From the IMG/VR virus record IMGVR_UViG_3300025141_000682, positions 1 to 25,157 of that record: a stretch of 25,157 bases of DNA; one strand, given 5' to 3'. This DNA comes from a virus. Every line of letters starts with the position of its first letter. Position 1 is the first letter of the stretch. Made by a program: the position numbers and the translations under genes. Below the pieces are notes generated by a model, which worked only from the letters and a program-made list of their open reading frames with translations, was not told where the DNA came from and ran no database searches. Below are positions 4,501 through 20,050 of this stretch, piece after piece.

Positions 4501-5035
4501 CTTCACTATGTTTTTTAAGTATATCGTAATCCATCCTCGGGTAACGATAAAAGTTGTCAGCACTATAAGATTTAGAGACCAAGGAAAATATATTATTAAG
4601 ACCTTTTTGGTTTTGAGCTAAAAGGATAAGATGTCTACGGCGATTAAGAATGTTTTTAATCGCTCGTTTATTACTTTCATCTTCAATGGTCGTACCTGAT
4701 TTAGACTTATCAATACTTTTTTTTGCCTTTTTATCTGCTTTTACCTTTTCCAGTTCCTCTCTCCACCTGTCAATACTGGGGAGAAAATACGCTTCTACGC
4801 CAAAAATAGGTGTAAAATCTTTACCCTCTTTCATCATCTTTTGGGCATGTTGAACCTGATATGCAAAACCATTCATATTACCGTGATCAGTTAAAGCTAG
4901 TGCATCACTACCATTCTGAAAAGCGGATTCCATATGTTCGGATGGGTAACCTAGACCGTCAAAGGGAGAACCAACACCGCTATGAGCGTGAAGACCTGTA
5001 AACGGTATTTTACTTTTTATTCTATCGCCTTTCAC
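1502..5035 (-). CDS. dnaE: DNA polymerase III alpha subunit (DnaE-type, family C)
   Basis: Replicative polymerase of the bacterial DnaE class, 1177 residues, close to the bacterial length. An N-terminal PHP domain is visible: HAHSGVGS (His16, His18), LTDHGN (48-53), GVEAYF, SACLGG and TADSHY. The catalytic core has GAGRGSAAGS (430-439), PDIDYD with Asp472 and Asp474, HAGGVVI (592-598) and FIKFDILGL with Asp637; these match the three catalytic Asp residues of E. coli DnaE. YRPGPL, FQEQIA and GYGFNKSHAVSYS follow, then a helix-hairpin-helix segment (KGLGEKAIEQII). There is no embedded PolC-type exonuclease. I place the start at GTG 5033-5035, because GAGGAGG lies 6 nt upstream and the codon overlaps the TGA of the preceding gene as GTGA; an in-frame GTG at 5069-5071 lacks these supports. 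A separate family A polymerase lies at 17654-18835. Confidence 0.95.
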   Translation of the reverse strand: MKGDRIKSKIPFTGLHAHSGVGSPFDGLGYPSEHMESAFQNGSDALALTDHGNMNGFAYQVQHAQKMMKEGKDFTPIFGVEAYFLPSIDRWREELEKVKADKKAKKSIDKSKSGTTIEDESNKRAIKNILNRRRHLILLAQNQKGLNNIFSLVSKSYSADNFYRYPRMDYDILKKHSEGVIAASACLGGVLAGNYWENIESGEKAVLTAMRDTTEKMVSIFGDRWYGELQWNNIKEQHQLNKLIIQVCAEYGVDLISTADSHYPSITAWKDRELYKRLGWLGKGGMPAWMSAELPVDVEEIGYELFPKNGEQMWEAYKKYSSKLGCSYNDSIIHESIERTHHIAHTRIEKFIPDNTVRLPSFIIPAGQTADRTLVAACIDGVRDLDLKDDSEYIARLKEELNIISDRGFSKYFLTMKAIADRASDVQLTGAGRGSAAGSLVAYALGITQVDPIKYNLLFSRFMTKDAKDYPDIDYDVSSPMQLKEMLIDEWGSNTVVPISNFNKLQLRSVIKDISKLYNVPFVEANSVTSKMMVEATPIAKKLRGMKAGVYTPTFEEVMEHSDSLKKFLNKYPRIKTHVEALVGEVRSVSRHAGGVVIGEDLDKHMPLINSGGVTQTPWSEGQHVRHLEPMGFIKFDILGLSTLKMIEGAITHILNRHHGVRNPTFKDIKQFYDKHLHPEKINLKDQKVYKNIFWEGKWAGIFQFAEQGAQEFCKRAKPKNIIDIAAITAVYRPGPLSANVHETFIKTKENLKGIRYGHNIVKEITKETYGFLIFQEQIALLAHKLGKDLSLDEGNKLRKLLTKKGTGAVAAQKTKLKLKFVAGCVEKGLSEKWADKMWQKFEFFSGYGFNKSHAVSYSIISFQCAWLLNYYPAEWMAAFLDKEPESRKEKAINIAKKFGFNIKPLDINKSMVNWVIEVNPPSFIPIYTDGGSNFEHIQSIDKGDSKTLIQPLTSIKGLGEKAIEQIIEHRPFNNIEELLFSKDIAYSKLNKKAINVLIKAEALNDLMDNRFRNLKHFWTVVAENRPKTKKKLNLLIEEFKDIEDFTRDEYIKTKVDITGVYPFDLVISDDVVKRLNRFARSEWGRSTAPAISEWDRNIAYAWFIPREVIKRKTVKGRSYFIVKTIDKNSAMTSIRCWGVEPKDKIFINHPYLVKLNYHPQWGFSTKGGLSDWIMIG

Positions 5036-5919
5036 TCTTCCTCCTCTAAATCTACCCCTAAAGGATTCCACTCGCTATACGATAACAGAAAATCAGCTGG
5101 TTTGTCAAGGTTATTTTCACTACCGAGCCATTTTCTTAATCCTTTCCAATTGGACACATCATAATACCAAGAAACCTCTAAAAGGCAAGCATTTTCTGTA
5201 TTGACATCGCTAAAAACAAAATCGTGAGTGAAATAACGACCTGTATATTGTTCGCTTACTGGTAATACTTTTTTTTCAGCAGTATGTTTCTTGTTTTCAT
5301 TTTTTCTGAACTTGCGCCTACACACTAAAAAATCTTCAGGAGTAAAAGTAAAAGGAAGGTAAAGCCCATCTTTAAAATTGCTATCCTCATAAGAGATATA
5401 AAAAGAATCACTGGTTCTTATTTTCGCCCTAATCTTATCTTTATAACGTAAGGGGTGTAGGCCATATGGGAAACAAACAAAATATTTATCCGGTGTTGTA
5501 TAGCGACTTAATTTTCGTCCTACGCGCCAAGCATTTTGAGCACCAGTGATAATGCTCCAAGAGAGTGACGTTCTTCTATCAACGTCTTTGGGATGAGTGG
5601 GGGTATAATAAATTGGTATTTCTCTTATTAGTGGCCTATTAGCAAATTTAGATTTTGTATAATATATCACCGGATCGTATATCCAATCACCAAGTCTATA
5701 TCGTATAAGAGGTTGCATATCTCTAGGGCAAACAATCCAAATTGATTTACAACCAGCCACCGCGCAGTTAAAAACTGCATTTTCAATGGCTAAAAAATTT
5801 TCCCCAATTGGCATAAGACTATCATGCCATGGGAATTTGAAATCCAAAGGCTGTCCATCTACGGGAACAATTCCTGCTAAATGGTGATTTATCATATTTT
5901 TTGGTAAATCAATTTCCAT
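5032..5919 (-). CDS. Uncharacterised protein with a nucleotidyltransferase-like (GT-A-type) N-terminus
   Basis: A 295-residue protein. Residues 13-70 read like the start of a sugar-nucleotide transferase fold: LAGIVPVDGQPLDF, then FPWHDSLMPIGENFLAIENA, a conserved Ala-Gly-Cys turn and IWIVCP. This resembles the PKxLxPV...GxxxIxIV pattern of NTP-transferase enzymes, but the GxGTRL nucleotide loop is absent. A charged linker (about 204-216) precedes a C-terminal part rich in aromatic residues and ending in five acidic residues (DLEEEE without the Leu). The gene overlaps the previous gene by 11 bp and the polymerase by 4 bp (GTGA), so it should be co-translated with DNA polymerase III. Its proximity suggests a role linked to replication or nucleotide chemistry, but this is only inference. 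I believe related proteins occur in other marine phages as hypotheticals; I cannot verify that here. Confidence 0.72.
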   Translation of the reverse strand: MEIDLPKNMINHHLAGIVPVDGQPLDFKFPWHDSLMPIGENFLAIENAVFNCAVAGCKSIWIVCPRDMQPLIRYRLGDWIYDPVIYYTKSKFANRPLIREIPIYYTPTHPKDVDRRTSLSWSIITGAQNAWRVGRKLSRYTTPDKYFVCFPYGLHPLRYKDKIRAKIRTSDSFYISYEDSNFKDGLYLPFTFTPEDFLVCRRKFRKNENKKHTAEKKVLPVSEQYTGRYFTHDFVFSDVNTENACLLEVSWYYDVSNWKGLRKWLGSENNLDKPADFLLSYSEWNPLGVDLEEEE

Positions 5920-13192: not shown

Positions 13193-13879
13193 ATGAAATT
13201 AACAAAAGCGCGATTAAAACAAATTATCAAAGAAGAGATGAACAACTTGCTTAATGAAGCTCCTCCTGGTGACAGGGACCCCGAGATTCCTGAAGAGTTG
13301 TACAGGCGCCGACGTGAGAGGTTAAAGCGGGAGCGGAAGGCGGCGCGGGAGAAGGCGGGCAAAGGGGTCCAAAAAGTAGGACTAATACCGGTCGGTACTG
13401 ATGGCAAAGCATTGTTGACGATGGATGAAATCAAACGCTTAAAAAAGAGCGATAAAGTCAATTACGTTAAGGAATGGAAGAGAGTTAAAGGCGCAACTGC
13501 AGTTAACAAAAAGATGTGGGATGAGCGTGAGAAAAAACTAAAGAAAAAACTAAAAGAAGGAAGGGAGCCGATTACTGAAGGTATTGACGACATGCACGAA
13601 GAGGCTATGAAAATCGCCAGCTTTTGGCGCAAGGCTACAAAGCAATTGAATATGATTTGCAAACAACCGGATATGTCTCCCATTGATTGCAACAATGTCA
13701 GGCAATTTTTTGCAGTGTTGCAGGCCCACCCGGTAACAAAAGCAGCCAGTAAAGGCAATCTAGCTAAAATGCGAGCTTATAAACATTATATAAATTATTT
13801 CAAGCCCAACAGCCCATCAATTGATCCAGAGGCACTGAAGCCTATAATTGATAAAGTTACCAGTAACATTAAAAAATAA
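13193..13879 (+). CDS. Basic protein with possible capsid-targeting N-terminus; candidate internal virion protein
   Basis: The only plus-strand gene, 228 residues, placed between two divergently or convergently oriented minus-strand blocks. It starts with an amphipathic helix (KLTKARLKQIIKEEMNN) ending in LNE-A at 20-23, followed by a very basic segment (residues 38-59, many Arg/Lys), a Lys-rich middle, and a helical C-terminal domain (130-228) with two Cys. The N-terminus resembles T4 capsid-targeting peptides, and LNE-A, LKE-G (120-123) and ITE-G (127-130) each fit the (L/I)xE cleavage rule of the T4 prohead protease. It could thus be an internal, DNA-associated capsid protein. Bases about 13306-13372 are far richer in G and C than the neighbours. 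The TATAAATA box upstream fits late expression. Function is inference. Confidence 0.72.
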   Translation: MKLTKARLKQIIKEEMNNLLNEAPPGDRDPEIPEELYRRRRERLKRERKAAREKAGKGVQKVGLIPVGTDGKALLTMDEIKRLKKSDKVNYVKEWKRVKGATAVNKKMWDEREKKLKKKLKEGREPITEGIDDMHEEAMKIASFWRKATKQLNMICKQPDMSPIDCNNVRQFFAVLQAHPVTKAASKGNLAKMRAYKHYINYFKPNSPSIDPEALKPIIDKVTSNIKK

Positions 13880-16001: not shown

Positions 16002-16745
16002 TTAGCTCAATAGCTCTGAAAAAGCCTTATCCACTCTGCTTCTAACAGAAGTTACAGGCACCCGAGCTGGGGTTAGAGTATCCTCAGAATTTAAAAAATT
16101 ATTTAGGATTTCCTTAACCTCAGAAGGGCTTTTTCGCGCTGATGCAAAAGCTGCATCAAAATCTGGGATGGATTCCAAAAGCGCAGCAGCCTTGGCACTA
16201 TCTTCAAGAAGGGGAGAAGAAGCACGGCGTGGCGTAATTTTGGTTTCTGGAAAAGAAGCACCAGCCGGCTTGGTATACTTAATCACCAAATCTGTACCAG
16301 ATTCAGCATCTGTAATATCTCCATACTCAGGATTAAGCACAAGACCAACCAGGGTTTCATAAGCACGCTTTCCAAAACCCCAAATCTTAACACCCTCTTC
16401 CTCACGACCACGTACAACGACAGGGGCGAAGAAACGCTGCTTCGCGCCCAGCTTACGAGCCACTCTCTTTGACTCATCCGAACCATCCTTCCAGAGGGCT
16501 CGGACATACTTGTCTAGAGGACAATCCTCTCCAAAATTCCTCTTCGGTGAGAGAAATCCTGGCGCACCTCCAACATCATAGTGGAACCAAAAATCCTTAA
16601 AAGGATCGCCATCAACTGGACACACAAGGCGTACAGTCTGCTCACCTTCTTCAGGCTTCCAAAACTGATTACTGTTAGTACCGCCCTCCCCTCTGTTCTT
16701 GAGAGTTGTATAACGAGCACGTACTTTCTTCATATCAATAGCCAT
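16002..16745 (-). CDS. Single-stranded DNA-binding protein, T4 gp32-like
   Basis: Coats ssDNA at the fork and in recombination. The 247-residue protein follows the gp32 order: basic N-terminus (MKKVRARYTTLKNR, for self-cooperativity), FWKPEEGEQTVRLVCP (28-43), KDFWFHYDVGG (50-60), CPLDKY (75-80), AKQRFFAPVVV (101-111), VKIWGFGKRAYETL (119-132) and TDLVIKY. In T4 gp32 the CPxC block supplies two zinc ligands; here the second Cys is Asp78, leaving Cys75, Cys42 and His55, so zinc binding is probably lost or altered. The C-terminus is Ser/Lys-containing and less acidic than T4. Base composition is more GC-rich than the neighbours, as expected for a highly expressed gene. The ATG has AGGAG about 12 nt upstream; an 8-bp hairpin lies just before this leader. 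Confidence 0.88.
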   Translation of the reverse strand: MAIDMKKVRARYTTLKNRGEGGTNSNQFWKPEEGEQTVRLVCPVDGDPFKDFWFHYDVGGAPGFLSPKRNFGEDCPLDKYVRALWKDGSDESKRVARKLGAKQRFFAPVVVRGREEEGVKIWGFGKRAYETLVGLVLNPEYGDITDAESGTDLVIKYTKPAGASFPETKITPRRASSPLLEDSAKAAALLESIPDFDAAFASARKSPSEVKEILNNFLNSEDTLTPARVPVTSVRSRVDKAFSELLS

Positions 16746-16780: not shown

Positions 16781-16803
16781 CGCCTTGATGATCTCTCAAG
16801 GCG
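16781..16803 (-). promoter_or_regulatory. 8-bp hairpin before the SSB gene; possible translational operator
   Basis: Perfect stem CGCCTTGA/TCAAGGCG with a 7-nt loop GAGATCA, overlapping the TGA stop of the FtsZ-like gene. In minus-strand RNA it is followed by a 35-nt A-rich unstructured leader containing the AGGAG site and then the SSB ATG. This resembles the T4 gene 32 operator, where a structured element is followed by an unstructured A/U-rich leader that gp32 coats to block its own translation. On the plus strand the same stem is followed by CTATTTTTTG, so it could also stop antisense transcripts. Confidence 0.55.
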
Positions 16804-17644
16804 CTATTTTTTGTATTAATGTACTACTTTTTTCACAATAAGCAAATAGCTTATCATATTCTGTCGGATAAACTGAATAAGTTGTTTTCAGTCTAGCATG
16901 CTCAAAATTATTTTTTAAGTTGTTTTGAATGACCTCCATTAAATTTTTATCCTCTTCCAATTGCTTTTCAGGAACAGCATAATAGTAATTTTTTTCTCTT
17001 GGAATGTCAAGAACAAAAAATAATTTTTCTTTACTATTTTCTACATCAAACAAGCCAATAGTACTAACGCGAGCAGTGTTTATACGATTTGTAGTCGTTG
17101 TAAATATTGCCCTTGAATGGTTAAATATATTAATCATATGGTACGTAGATGCTATCAAGTTGTTTAATGAGTCCCAATACTTCATTATTGGAACTGGTCC
17201 CAGTATATCAGATATTTTTTGATTGTCAAGTAAATAAACACGCTTAAACAAGCCTGAGCGTGCGTATTCTTGAAAAACATTAAAAAGTAAATTGTTTTGA
17301 AGCTTTTTTTCTCCCACAATTTCCTCAAGTTTGGGCACAATATACATTACTGTGATTTCGGTTTTATCTTTAATTTTTTCCAGAATTGAAAGAGAAGCAC
17401 CAGACACCGTCCCACAACTAGTAATAAATAAGGTTTCAGGCATCACCTCCTCCTGCAAATATTTAATCATACCTCTCGGTAGTTTCTTTTCATACAGCTC
17501 TGGTGATGTCTGGCGCTTGAGACCAAAGGAATTTTTGGCCTTTTTTAATCCTACATCAAGTTTTATAATTTTATATTGCGGGTATTGTTTTAGCTGATTT
17601 GCTATATTACACCCAGCTTCACCTAATCCTATTACGGTTTGCAT
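16796..17644 (-). CDS. Divergent FtsZ/tubulin-like protein
   Basis: A 282-residue protein whose block order follows FtsZ: VIGLGEAGCNIANQL (4-18) matches the T1 loop GVGGxGxNAV; LFITSCGTVSGASLSILEKI (72-91) matches the GTP signature GGGTGTGAAP with several Gly lost; ITVMYIVP matches TVAVVTxPF; RVYLLDNQKISDIL (135-148) matches SLITIPNDKLLxxL; and YWDSLNNLIAST (156-167) matches the H7 helix AFxxANDVL. The catalytic NxDxxD of the T7 loop is not found; NRINTARVST lies in that place. Nucleotide binding may thus be weakened and GTP hydrolysis lost. It starts 9 bp after the family A polymerase gene, with GAGG 6 nt upstream. It might form filaments, position phage DNA, or act as a decoy for host FtsZ. 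Assignment by eye; fold comparison needed. Confidence 0.62.
   Translation of the reverse strand: MQTVIGLGEAGCNIANQLKQYPQYKIIKLDVGLKKAKNSFGLKRQTSPELYEKKLPRGMIKYLQEEVMPETLFITSCGTVSGASLSILEKIKDKTEITVMYIVPKLEEIVGEKKLQNNLLFNVFQEYARSGLFKRVYLLDNQKISDILGPVPIMKYWDSLNNLIASTYHMINIFNHSRAIFTTTTNRINTARVSTIGLFDVENSKEKLFFVLDIPREKNYYYAVPEKQLEEDKNLMEVIQNNLKNNFEHARLKTTYSVYPTEYDKLFAYCEKSSTLIQKIAP
16982..17010 (-). promoter_or_regulatory. Possible internal promoter upstream of the SSB gene
   Basis: Minus-strand TTGACA (17010-17005), a 17-bp spacer and TACTAT (16987-16982), inside the FtsZ-like gene. The -35 is perfect; the -10 matches 4 of 6. Transcription would start near 16975, about 230 nt before the SSB ATG, and would include the hairpin at 16781-16803. 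It could give SSB extra, separately controlled expression. Confidence 0.42.
17202..17229 (-). promoter_or_regulatory. Possible second internal promoter in the FtsZ-like gene
   Basis: Minus-strand TTGACA (17229-17224), a 16-bp spacer and TATACT (17207-17202), the same -10 as at 11098 and 13091. It lies inside coding sequence, at residues about 139-148 of the FtsZ-like protein, so partly constrained by codons. Start point near 17195, about 450 nt before SSB. Confidence 0.45.
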
Positions 17645-17653
17645 TTACGCCTC

Positions 17654-18835
17654 TTATTTAATAAATAAATTTTTCATTTCCGCCCAATTTTTACCACCAA
17701 GGCAGTTAATACGGAATTTACCAAACCTTGTATCACTGAATAGTTCCTTAATTGTGTGAAACTCATACTCTTGTTCTCTATGAAGATCGATCATGATTGA
17801 GTCGTGGTTACAAAATTTAATATAGCTTTTTCTACTTTTCAAAAATTCCCAAATTTTATACATCTGCTCGAATACCAAATCCGCAGCTGTAGATTGGATG
17901 AGATAGCTTATGGCATGATCTTCGTCACATTCTATTTCTCGACCAAAAGGGGTTATAACCTTATTATCCTTAAAATACAAACTTTTGAGTTTTTTTCGGT
18001 TGTAAACCTTGCTAACCATGTCATCCTTGCTATTGGGGTTATAAAGCCAGGAAAATATCCTTTTTTTGGCATTATCGCGATCTTTTGCACTAGTAAATAC
18101 ATGAGTTAGGTTCCAATCATGAAGGTCTTCTTCCGGCTGTTCATGTCCAAGCAACGCCAGAGCAACTCTTAGCTCACATGCATTGAAATCCATCTCGAAT
18201 AGCCAATCATTATTTGGAATTAATATTTTACGATATTGTTTAGCTAAAGTGAGTACCGGGAAAGAGCCTTTTTTAGTGCTTAAGCGCCCAGTAACCGTTT
18301 TTGCAATATCATAATCTATAAACGATGTACTGTCTTCAATAAGCCTGCAAATGTTTTTATCTTGTGTCGTGATTTTATCGACCTGAGACAAATTAATATT
18401 AAGTGGCCTTTGTTTAATATCAGCGATAACCTTTACAATCTTCAGCAACTGTTCATAATTATTAGGCTTTGGGCAATTGTTAAAGATATTTTCGCAAATT
18501 TCATTTTTGATTTCTGCCCAATTTTTAAGAAGAAAACGTGGCATAATATCGTAAATGCACGTTTGGTCTAAATCCAAGCCAACTATTTGAGACGTTTTTA
18601 TCACTGCCTTTATTCTTTTTTGAATTTCATCAAATTCTTTTTTCTTATTAACTGGACAAAGCTCTTCTAACGATTTTCCCAACACAAATAAATTAGCATA
18701 GTCCACATCCTGTTCGCTTAAATAAGAAGTATAAGACCAAGTTTTTGTACACAATGGGGTATACTTGTCATAAAATTTACCATCTTTGTAAACCATATGA
18801 CACTTTTCTTTGTCATCAAATGTTTGAAAAATCAT
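17654..18835 (-). CDS. Compact family A (PolA-type) DNA polymerase without exonuclease domains
   Basis: A 393-residue polymerase matching only the polymerase part of DNA polymerase I. Landmarks: TGRLST (182-187), motif A DFNACELR with catalytic Asp216 and Glu221, motif B (O helix) Arg253, Lys257, Phe261 and Tyr265 with exactly the spacing of E. coli Arg754/Lys758/Phe762/Tyr766, LIQSTAADL (312-320), and motif C NHDS with His344 and catalytic Asp345 (E. coli HDE, so Glu883 is Ser here). There is no 5'-3' exonuclease domain and no 3'-5' DxE motif; the N-terminal 175 residues are short and divergent. The separate FEN nuclease at 11516-12490 could complement it. A consensus promoter places the RNA start on the first base of the ATG. 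It may fill gaps or act in repair next to the DnaE enzyme. Confidence 0.9.
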   Translation of the reverse strand: MIFQTFDDKEKCHMVYKDGKFYDKYTPLCTKTWSYTSYLSEQDVDYANLFVLGKSLEELCPVNKKKEFDEIQKRIKAVIKTSQIVGLDLDQTCIYDIMPRFLLKNWAEIKNEICENIFNNCPKPNNYEQLLKIVKVIADIKQRPLNINLSQVDKITTQDKNICRLIEDSTSFIDYDIAKTVTGRLSTKKGSFPVLTLAKQYRKILIPNNDWLFEMDFNACELRVALALLGHEQPEEDLHDWNLTHVFTSAKDRDNAKKRIFSWLYNPNSKDDMVSKVYNRKKLKSLYFKDNKVITPFGREIECDEDHAISYLIQSTAADLVFEQMYKIWEFLKSRKSYIKFCNHDSIMIDLHREQEYEFHTIKELFSDTRFGKFRINCLGGKNWAEMKNLFIK

Positions 18836-18841
18836 GTTAAA

Positions 18842-18870
18842 ATATTACCAAATTTATTTTTCTTTGTCAA
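18842..18870 (-). promoter_or_regulatory. Consensus sigma70 promoter giving a leaderless message for the family A polymerase
   Basis: Minus-strand TTGACA (18870-18865, perfect), a 17-bp spacer and TAATAT (18847-18842). Seven bases after the -10 lies A18835, the first base of the polymerase ATG, so the mRNA should start at the start codon. No ribosome binding site precedes that ATG. The -35 uses the last codons of the upstream structural gene (Phe-Asp-Lys), so the two genes are separated by this promoter: tail genes upstream, replication genes downstream. Confidence 0.85.
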
Positions 18871-20050
18871 AGTTAAAAAAATAAGGATTTAGATTGCGTG
18901 TTTTATAAATCTTAGAATTCATAATCTTTTTATTAACATACCGCAATGCCAAGTCCAAACCATCAATGCGGTAATAATCAATTAGGTGTTTTTCAAACTC
19001 ATTATACTTATCTTCGATATTATTTTCAATTAATTTTATTTTTAAATATAGTTTAAGAAAATAACTTTCTCCATATTTTGAAATAAAGCCACTCTTGTCA
19101 CCTGGCATTTCTACTGGTAATTCCTTGATTTCTATTGTTTCAAAATCAGAAAACATGGGAGAGCCATATTGAACAGACTTTAGCTTTACAATATTCTTTG
19201 AATATGTTGTGTTAACTGCATAATAACTTGAATACATTTGCCACATATAACTTTTAAAATTTTTATAATCTATGTCAATTGCTCGATAATAGCATAAATC
19301 AAAAAAGTTATTATCTTCTAAATTAATATTGTATTTGGCAGCATATATTTGCATTTTGCCACTAGATAAATCGGCAATTAGTTGCCATGGTGCGTTTTTG
19401 TTCACTCTAAAGCCATGTCCCTTACAAATATTTACAAAATTAGAATACTCAAACTTATTCAAATAATTTTCTACTTTTATATCGGTATCATCATGTTCCT
19501 CTTTCGTTAAATCTATAATCAATCCGGATATCTTATTAGTACAATTATTGCTTAATATAAATTCACTTTGCGTCAAAGAAACATCTTTACTTACCAATCT
19601 AGCATAATTTAAATATTCTTTAATAAAGCATTTGAAAGAAGGTATTGTTTTATTTGCGAGATAATCATTTAAAAATGGATTAAATATAAAATTTTCAAAA
19701 TATTCATCATACAAGACTGGTAAGGATTCCCAAGATCTTTTTGGATTAAACTTGCCAAGAAAATCAGCAGAAAAAGCTTTCTTGCTTTTTGCTCTTCTAA
19801 TAAAATTTTGCAAATTTAAAAAAGCATCAGTTACAAAATTGATTGCACGGAACTTACCTCTTGTATCAATGTTTTTCAAATATTTTTCTCTTGGATACAC
19901 TGTTATACCATTGGTGTCCACCTTTCCATAATATGGTCTTTTGTACCAAATGTCATATATTTTGTTTTTTGGAAAAACGGGATAAAGTTCTTCATATTCT
20001 TTTTTAGTTTTAAAGAATGTAGAGGCCTTTGAAGAGTTATTGCTTAGCAT
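18854..20050 (-). CDS. Hypothetical protein, probable virion structural protein, 398 aa
   Basis: I do not recognise a named family. The 398 residues are rich in Tyr, Phe, Asn and Lys, without membrane segments or signal peptide. Recognisable patches are YDIWYKRPYYGKVD, GHGFRVNKNAPWQLIADLSS and ISKYGESYFLKLYLKIKL; I associate the APWxLxADL and YGESYFLxLYxxI style with virion proteins of large marine phages, but this is memory and cannot be verified here. The gene lies directly after the baseplate genes (18-bp gap) and before the promoter of the replication group, so a tail or baseplate role is the simplest reading. The ATG lacks a clear ribosome binding site. Confidence 0.72.
   Translation of the reverse strand: MLSNNSSKASTFFKTKKEYEELYPVFPKNKIYDIWYKRPYYGKVDTNGITVYPREKYLKNIDTRGKFRAINFVTDAFLNLQNFIRRAKSKKAFSADFLGKFNPKRSWESLPVLYDEYFENFIFNPFLNDYLANKTIPSFKCFIKEYLNYARLVSKDVSLTQSEFILSNNCTNKISGLIIDLTKEEHDDTDIKVENYLNKFEYSNFVNICKGHGFRVNKNAPWQLIADLSSGKMQIYAAKYNINLEDNNFFDLCYYRAIDIDYKNFKSYMWQMYSSYYAVNTTYSKNIVKLKSVQYGSPMFSDFETIEIKELPVEMPGDKSGFISKYGESYFLKLYLKIKLIENNIEDKYNEFEKHLIDYYRIDGLDLALRYVNKKIMNSKIYKTRNLNPYFFNFDKEK

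Follow-up and report, generated by a model that had tools for sequence, protein, structure and literature searches.

What does a protein with the motif order of FtsZ and a degenerate GTP-binding signature do between the polymerase and single-strand DNA-binding protein (SSB) genes of a virus? The question is raised by a 25,157-base virus contig, the whole stretch of DNA that was analysed (hereafter the window). It carries a replication module with a DnaE-type polymerase, a class II-like ribonucleotide reductase, a dUTPase, a 5'-3' exonuclease, RecA, a gp32-type SSB and a family-A DNA polymerase. The best cultured matches of its replicative helicase are those of Microcystis phage Mel-JY01 and of Flavobacterium immuto phages. 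The locus itself is made up as follows:

17654..18835, (-) strand: family-A DNA polymerase gene (polA), 393 aa, immediately upstream of the gene under study (PF00476, E 2.6e-12; PHROG 17, E 7.9e-15)
16796..17644, (-) strand: tubulin-fold gene (tub), 282 aa, with ATG at 17644 and TGA at 16796 (ORF list, AlphaFold2, Foldseek/VIA, dN/dS)
16002..16745, (-) strand: gp32-type SSB gene (gp32), 247 aa, immediately downstream (PF08804, E 8e-12; PHROG 1192, E 4.6e-22)
16781..16803, (-) strand: hairpin with an 8-bp stem, CGCCTTGA/TCAAGGCG, which holds the tub stop codon and precedes the gp32 start

The two neighbours are those named in the preliminary description of this DNA. The polymerase gene ends 9 nt before tub, and 50 nt separate tub from the SSB gene. 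The hairpin has a perfect stem and an RNA fold z of -2.87 against shuffles, and it is a possible processing or translation control element. Across 16796-17644 the plus strand is stop-rich. The motifs that had been quoted for the protein are all found, namely VIGLGEAGCNIAN (residues 4-16), SCGTVSGAS (76-84), DNQKISDIL (140-148) and YWDSLNNL (156-163), and the NxDxxD sequence is missing from it, as had been claimed.

Several other genes of the window deserve mention in their own right. A 398-aa protein (18854-20050, (-) strand) adjoins polA and recurs in most of the family loci whose upstream sequence is long enough, and a 295-aa protein (5032-5919, (-) strand) adjoining DnaE has no family match above cut-off. 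A GIY-YIG endonuclease gene (973-1509, (-) strand; PF01541, E 7.2e-11), probably that of a homing endonuclease, lies between dnaE and the dUTPase gene. An N-terminal motif resembling MK(I/L)TKxxLKQ(L/I)IxEE opens 25 different small ORFs in the phage group (e.g. L016:3880-4149), and the same kind of start is found at 13193-13879 (+), the only large plus-strand ORF in that part of the window, where the GC skew flips.

We collected relatives of the tub product from IMG/VR, where three scans returned 111, at least 589 and at least 551 matching stretches, the latter two sets overlapping. An alignment of 97 rows with <90% identity, in which the window is present twice (once as L081), contains 15 positions that are invariant in 97/97 rows, among them G6, G8, G11, N141 and N161. 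The dN/dS ratio between close relatives is ~0.1, as is expected of a gene under purifying selection. Hundreds of relatives, this ratio and the full-length tubulin fold of two separately modelled members show the ORF at 16796-17644 to be a real gene, as had been proposed. The phage group is apparently marine, judging from the collection contigs and relatives.

The family is all but missing from the reference collections that we searched. Three different members found no good match in INPHARED, which comprises 50,697 records of cultured or deposited phages; a match in Shewanella phage SppYZU05 (28%, E 0.08) was discarded, as that region carries a PAAR gene. No PHROG covers the family (best E 0.029 for the window protein, isolated matches only for other members), PADLOC returned no informative match, and one protein and two profiles, searched against the PDB sequences, gave chance-level matches only, such as SirA. 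A literature search that covered few subscription journals and preprints returned no paper describing the family. The sole GTDB match lies in a WOR-3 MAG (L363, CP070664.1 2243228-2260046). It consists of a phage fragment of ~5.5 kb with the order u398-polA-tub-gp32-RecA, bounded by N runs and set among bacterial genes; it is probably mis-scaffolded phage sequence in the MAG chromosome, and we discarded it as a prophage or host clue.

The fold of the protein was predicted with confidence. The AlphaFold2 model of the window protein has a pLDDT of 93.7 and a pTM of 0.91, and a Foldseek search of the PDB returned FtsZ or TubZ for each of its best 50 matches (top E 1.4e-13). VIA-align superimposes 261-277 of the 282 residues on CetZ (Z 24.6), TubZ (23.2), FtsZ (23.2) and tubulin (22.3). 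In BFVD, the best match is an FtsZ-like protein from an uncultured phage (TMq 0.77), followed by phage tubulins, with Noxifer PhuZ at rank 3. A second member, 41% identical to the first and with a glycine-rich loop, was modelled with a pLDDT of 92.7 and gave the same fold matches, again with CetZ as the best (Z 24.5). Both models contain the N-terminal Rossmann-like GTPase domain, the core helix H7 and the C-terminal domain. Sequence profiles barely detect this relationship: PF00091 (Tubulin) matches the window protein with 17.2 bits (E 0.0065), under the 33-bit curated cut-off, and 11/29 members have such a sub-cut-off match. With PhuZ and FtsZ rows used as yardsticks only, hhalign scored the family against FtsZ at E 0.0024 (a broader alignment, A7, was no better, at E 0.14) and against PhuZ at E 0.0011, with a probability of 20% over 95 columns. 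On its modelled fold, the family belongs to the tubulin/FtsZ superfamily, and the earlier assignment, which was not obvious from the sequence, is borne out by structure prediction and by fold searches that return FtsZ, TubZ, CetZ and tubulin. The Z values of CetZ, TubZ, FtsZ and tubulin are too close to allow for a subfamily assignment. It is very improbable that we are instead dealing with a generic Rossmann-fold protein, for example a dehydrogenase-like enzyme, which merely resembles tubulin. Such a protein would be in keeping with the N-terminal GxGxAG, which recalls dinucleotide-binding motifs, and with single weak Pfam matches to TrkA_N, but the Foldseek and VIA alignments extend over the full length of the protein and take in its C-terminal domain, the best 50 rows are FtsZ, TubZ, CetZ or tubulin with Z values of 22-25, and PF00091 is the sole Pfam family matched by many members.

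We next consider the elements with which tubulins hydrolyze GTP and polymerize. In filaments of PhuZ, FtsZ and tubulin, the subunit interface is formed by the T7 loop and the base of helix H8, with the T7 aspartate being catalytic (PMC3678025). The corresponding part of the window protein is:

17069..17122, (-) strand: T7/H8 region, residues 175-192, with no conserved acid, no helix and a fixed spacing (alignment and DSSP of two models)

No column of this region is predominantly acidic in the 97 rows, and DSSP places no helix H8 in the AlphaFold2 model of either the window protein or the 41%-identical member. The loss of the T7 catalytic acid, first described for the window protein, thus extends to the whole family and is accompanied by the loss of H8. 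Because it is the T7 acid and H8 that make the active site of the next subunit complete, neither hydrolysis in trans nor ordinary protofilaments would be expected; judging from alignment and models, GTP hydrolysis and canonical protofilament stacking by this protein are unlikely. A non-canonical filament is possible. In principle, a tubulin that cannot hydrolyze GTP may still form a stable polymer. A static, non-hydrolyzing tubulin polymer serving as a scaffold of the replication site, a static scaffold being among the roles first proposed, would fit every observation. It would, however, need a new interface, the usual longitudinal contact through T7 and H8 being gone, and we regard such a scaffold as an unlikely account, albeit the first among the rivals.

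A cytomotive phage tubulin with divergent catalytic chemistry, which would position DNA or capsids as PhuZ does, is harder to reconcile with these data. PhuZ provides a known phage precedent (PMC3678025, PMC4244570), and the tubulin fold, the GG(S/G/A)G loop of many members and the guanine-contact residues (see below) would all suit a moving filament. Yet the T7 acid and H8, which are interface elements elsewhere (PMC3678025), are missing in 97/97 rows, H8 is seen in neither model, and the protein has no long C-terminal tail. Entire clades of the PhuZ phage family, moreover, do without PhuZ, which is dispensable (PMC11724907), whereas tub is a fixed gene. Neither a PhuZ profile nor phiKZ chimallin found a match in seven long contigs, and a PF00091 search of long family contigs found no second tubulin, in both cases among fragments and with no positive control. 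A cytomotive role thus seems distinctly unlikely.

The nucleotide binding site presents a different picture. It can be traced in the following elements:

17597..17635, (-) strand: T1 glycine loop VIGLGEAGCNIAN, residues 4-16; G6, L7, G8 and G11 are found in 97/97 rows, and hhalign places it onto PhuZ T1
17393..17419, (-) strand: T4 signature loop SCGTVSGAS, residues 76-84, aligned with FtsZ GGGTGTGAAP and with the PhuZ loop; a derived form of the loop kept in other clades
17222..17224, (-) strand: N141, the first residue of helix H6, found in 97/97 rows; assigned by its position in the model and by hhalign onto the Asn of FtsZ IPND
17162..17176, (-) strand: W157 to N161 in helix H7, with an aromatic residue four before an Asn, in hhalign register

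The T1 GxGxxG is present, and its GLGxAG form is invariant in the 97-row alignment. N161 is likewise conserved in 97/97 rows, residue 157 is Y/W/F in 83/97 and residue 156 is Y/F in 89/97. An unguided hhalign matches N141 with the Asn of FtsZ IPND and W157 with the guanine-stacking Phe of FtsZ, N161 following four residues on. We take the N141/W157/N161 pattern to be the equivalent of N206/Y224/N228 in tubulin, and W157/N161 to be that of F/(N,D) in FtsZ. By these alignments, the guanine-contact residues (the H6 Asn, and the H7 aromatic and Asn) appear to be retained. With T1 and the presumed guanine-contact positions both conserved, the family protein probably binds a guanine nucleotide. On this point the preliminary description needs qualifying, binding having probably been kept.

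The T4 loop is more variable. In the window's clade it reads SCGxVSGAS (SCG in 48/97 rows), while most other rows have GG(S/G/A)G-x-(I/V)-S-(G/S)-A-S, and the exact GGGTG(T/S)G signature is absent from every clade of the 97-row alignment. The SCG rows fall into one 50-row clade of the midpoint-rooted tree, with two exceptions, and the SCG form looks to be derived from a GG(S/G/A)G-type loop. The degeneracy reported for residues 76-84 is thus a property of the window's clade and does not hold for the others, in which the loop is glycine-rich (GGSG, GGGG or GGAG). Because T4 is shortened and less glycine-rich in the window's clade, phosphate binding could have been lost there.

We then compared the gene order across 179 family loci, for which some contigs were fetched twice, so that the counts are not independent. 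The upstream neighbour of tub is polA in 142/153 testable loci, and the downstream neighbour is gp32 in 162/165. From the polA stop to the tub start the median distance is 6.5 nt, and overlaps of 13, 4 and 1 nt (-13, -4, -1) are common. A minority of relatives carry small extra genes between polA and tub; a split polA, suggested by a best-hit gap table, was rejected, as polA is intact and small genes are inserted. At L076/L106 and L108, tub and gp32 are 2.8-3.1 kb apart, which shows that the SSB gene need not stay next to tub. Among 79 loci fetched by gp32 alone, tub is present in 72/72 that have enough upstream sequence. In a sister clade with Mel-JY01-type gp32 it is found in 0/68 testable loci, and LR756508 (484 kb), Mel-JY01 and immuto have the same module order, with no family member found between polA and gp32. 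In its own clade, the phage replication module has tub as a fixed component, located between polA and gp32. Given RecA, tub distances correlate at 0.77 with polA vs 0.57 with gp32; that tub tracks polA over gp32 after this correction, both being fast-evolving neighbours, is suggestive only.

This gene order bears on whether the protein acts on the host. In a host-division blocker, as envisaged in the preliminary description, a surface resembling the nucleotide face would bind the bottom of host FtsZ, cap protofilaments and halt division during infection. The complete FtsZ-like fold with its altered T7/H8 side is what a one-sided cap would look like, and unrelated phage proteins (T7 Gp0.4, P1 Icd) do target FtsZ. 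These are small proteins unrelated to ours, however, and the sequences of the family show no particular affinity to bacterial FtsZ (see the hhalign values for FtsZ and PhuZ above). The gene lies in the replication core family-wide, often overlapping polA, and not in a variable early-gene region, and we therefore consider a blocker improbable. A role in replication is favoured over host takeover because the gene is fixed in the replication core and often overlaps the polymerase gene.

Taken together, our preferred reading, which we put somewhat short of an even chance, is that of a replication-linked, non-cytomotive tubulin that probably binds guanine nucleotide and neither hydrolyzes it nor forms the canonical filament, its function being deduced. 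The protein would have abandoned the cytomotive-filament life of its superfamily, keeping the whole fold, T1 and the guanine-contact equivalents, and would serve the phage replication machinery as an accessory protein, be it a monomer, a dimer or a static assembly. It might, for example, tether polymerase and SSB or organize them where replication takes place, the bound nucleotide being a structural cofactor or switch. The rivals rank in the order static scaffold, FtsZ blocker, cytomotive filament. Counted against this replication-linked tubulin are the small genes that separate polA from tub in some relatives, the sister clade that replicates without tub, and the presence of nucleotide-bound T7-mutant FtsZ (3wgl, 3wgm) among the Foldseek PDB matches. 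More tentative still is the fuller statement that the protein is a tubulin-fold, guanine-nucleotide-binding, non-cytomotive part of the viral replication apparatus, made alongside the polymerase and kept across a large uncultured marine phage clade.

The known phage tubulins, PhuZ and TubZ, form moving filaments by which DNA or capsids are positioned. In the present family, the tubulin fold seems to have lost its catalytic loop throughout and yet is fixed in the replication module of a widespread phage group, having been missed by Pfam and PHROGs. If our reading is true, prokaryotic viruses would be able to use the fold for purposes other than filament dynamics, and the members with and without a glycine-rich loop would form a natural set with which to examine the role of nucleotide binding in the absence of hydrolysis.

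We compared the family to other members of the superfamily. Bacterial and archaeal FtsZ shares the whole fold (A. aeolicus FtsZ aligns over 270 residues at the VIA Z given above), and T1, T4, the S6-H6 Asn and the H7 aromatic/Asn occur in the same order and in hhalign register. Identity is however only ~12-14%, the window's clade lacks GGGTGTG, and the family has no NxDxxD, H8 or C-terminal FtsZ tail and stays under the Pfam cut-off. PhuZ and phage TubZ of phiKZ-like jumbo phages are likewise phage-encoded tubulin folds with T1 and T4 in hhalign register. As had been proposed, our protein differs from PhuZ, whose solved filaments use the T7 aspartate and the H8 base (PMC3678025): it lacks both elements and is shorter, and its gene lies between polA and gp32 on contigs of up to ~188 kb in which chimallin was not detected (fragments, no positive control). 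Plasmid-segregating TubZ aligns over 277 residues, whereas the family lacks its C-terminal extension and catalytic T7, and no tubR-like partner came to light beside tub. Archaeal CetZ is the best VIA match of both models, but the Z values of the other families lie within ~1-2, and T7 and H8 are missing from our family. Finally, FtsZl1 and FtsZl2 (Makarova and Koonin 2010, PMC2875224) are also divergent members of the tubulin superfamily that were recognized by weak profiles and gene context, and FtsZl1 lacks the T6-H7 elements required for filaments (PMC2875224). Those proteins are cellular and linked to vWA/OmpA, whereas the present family, in which T7 and H8 are missing instead, is viral and linked to replication.
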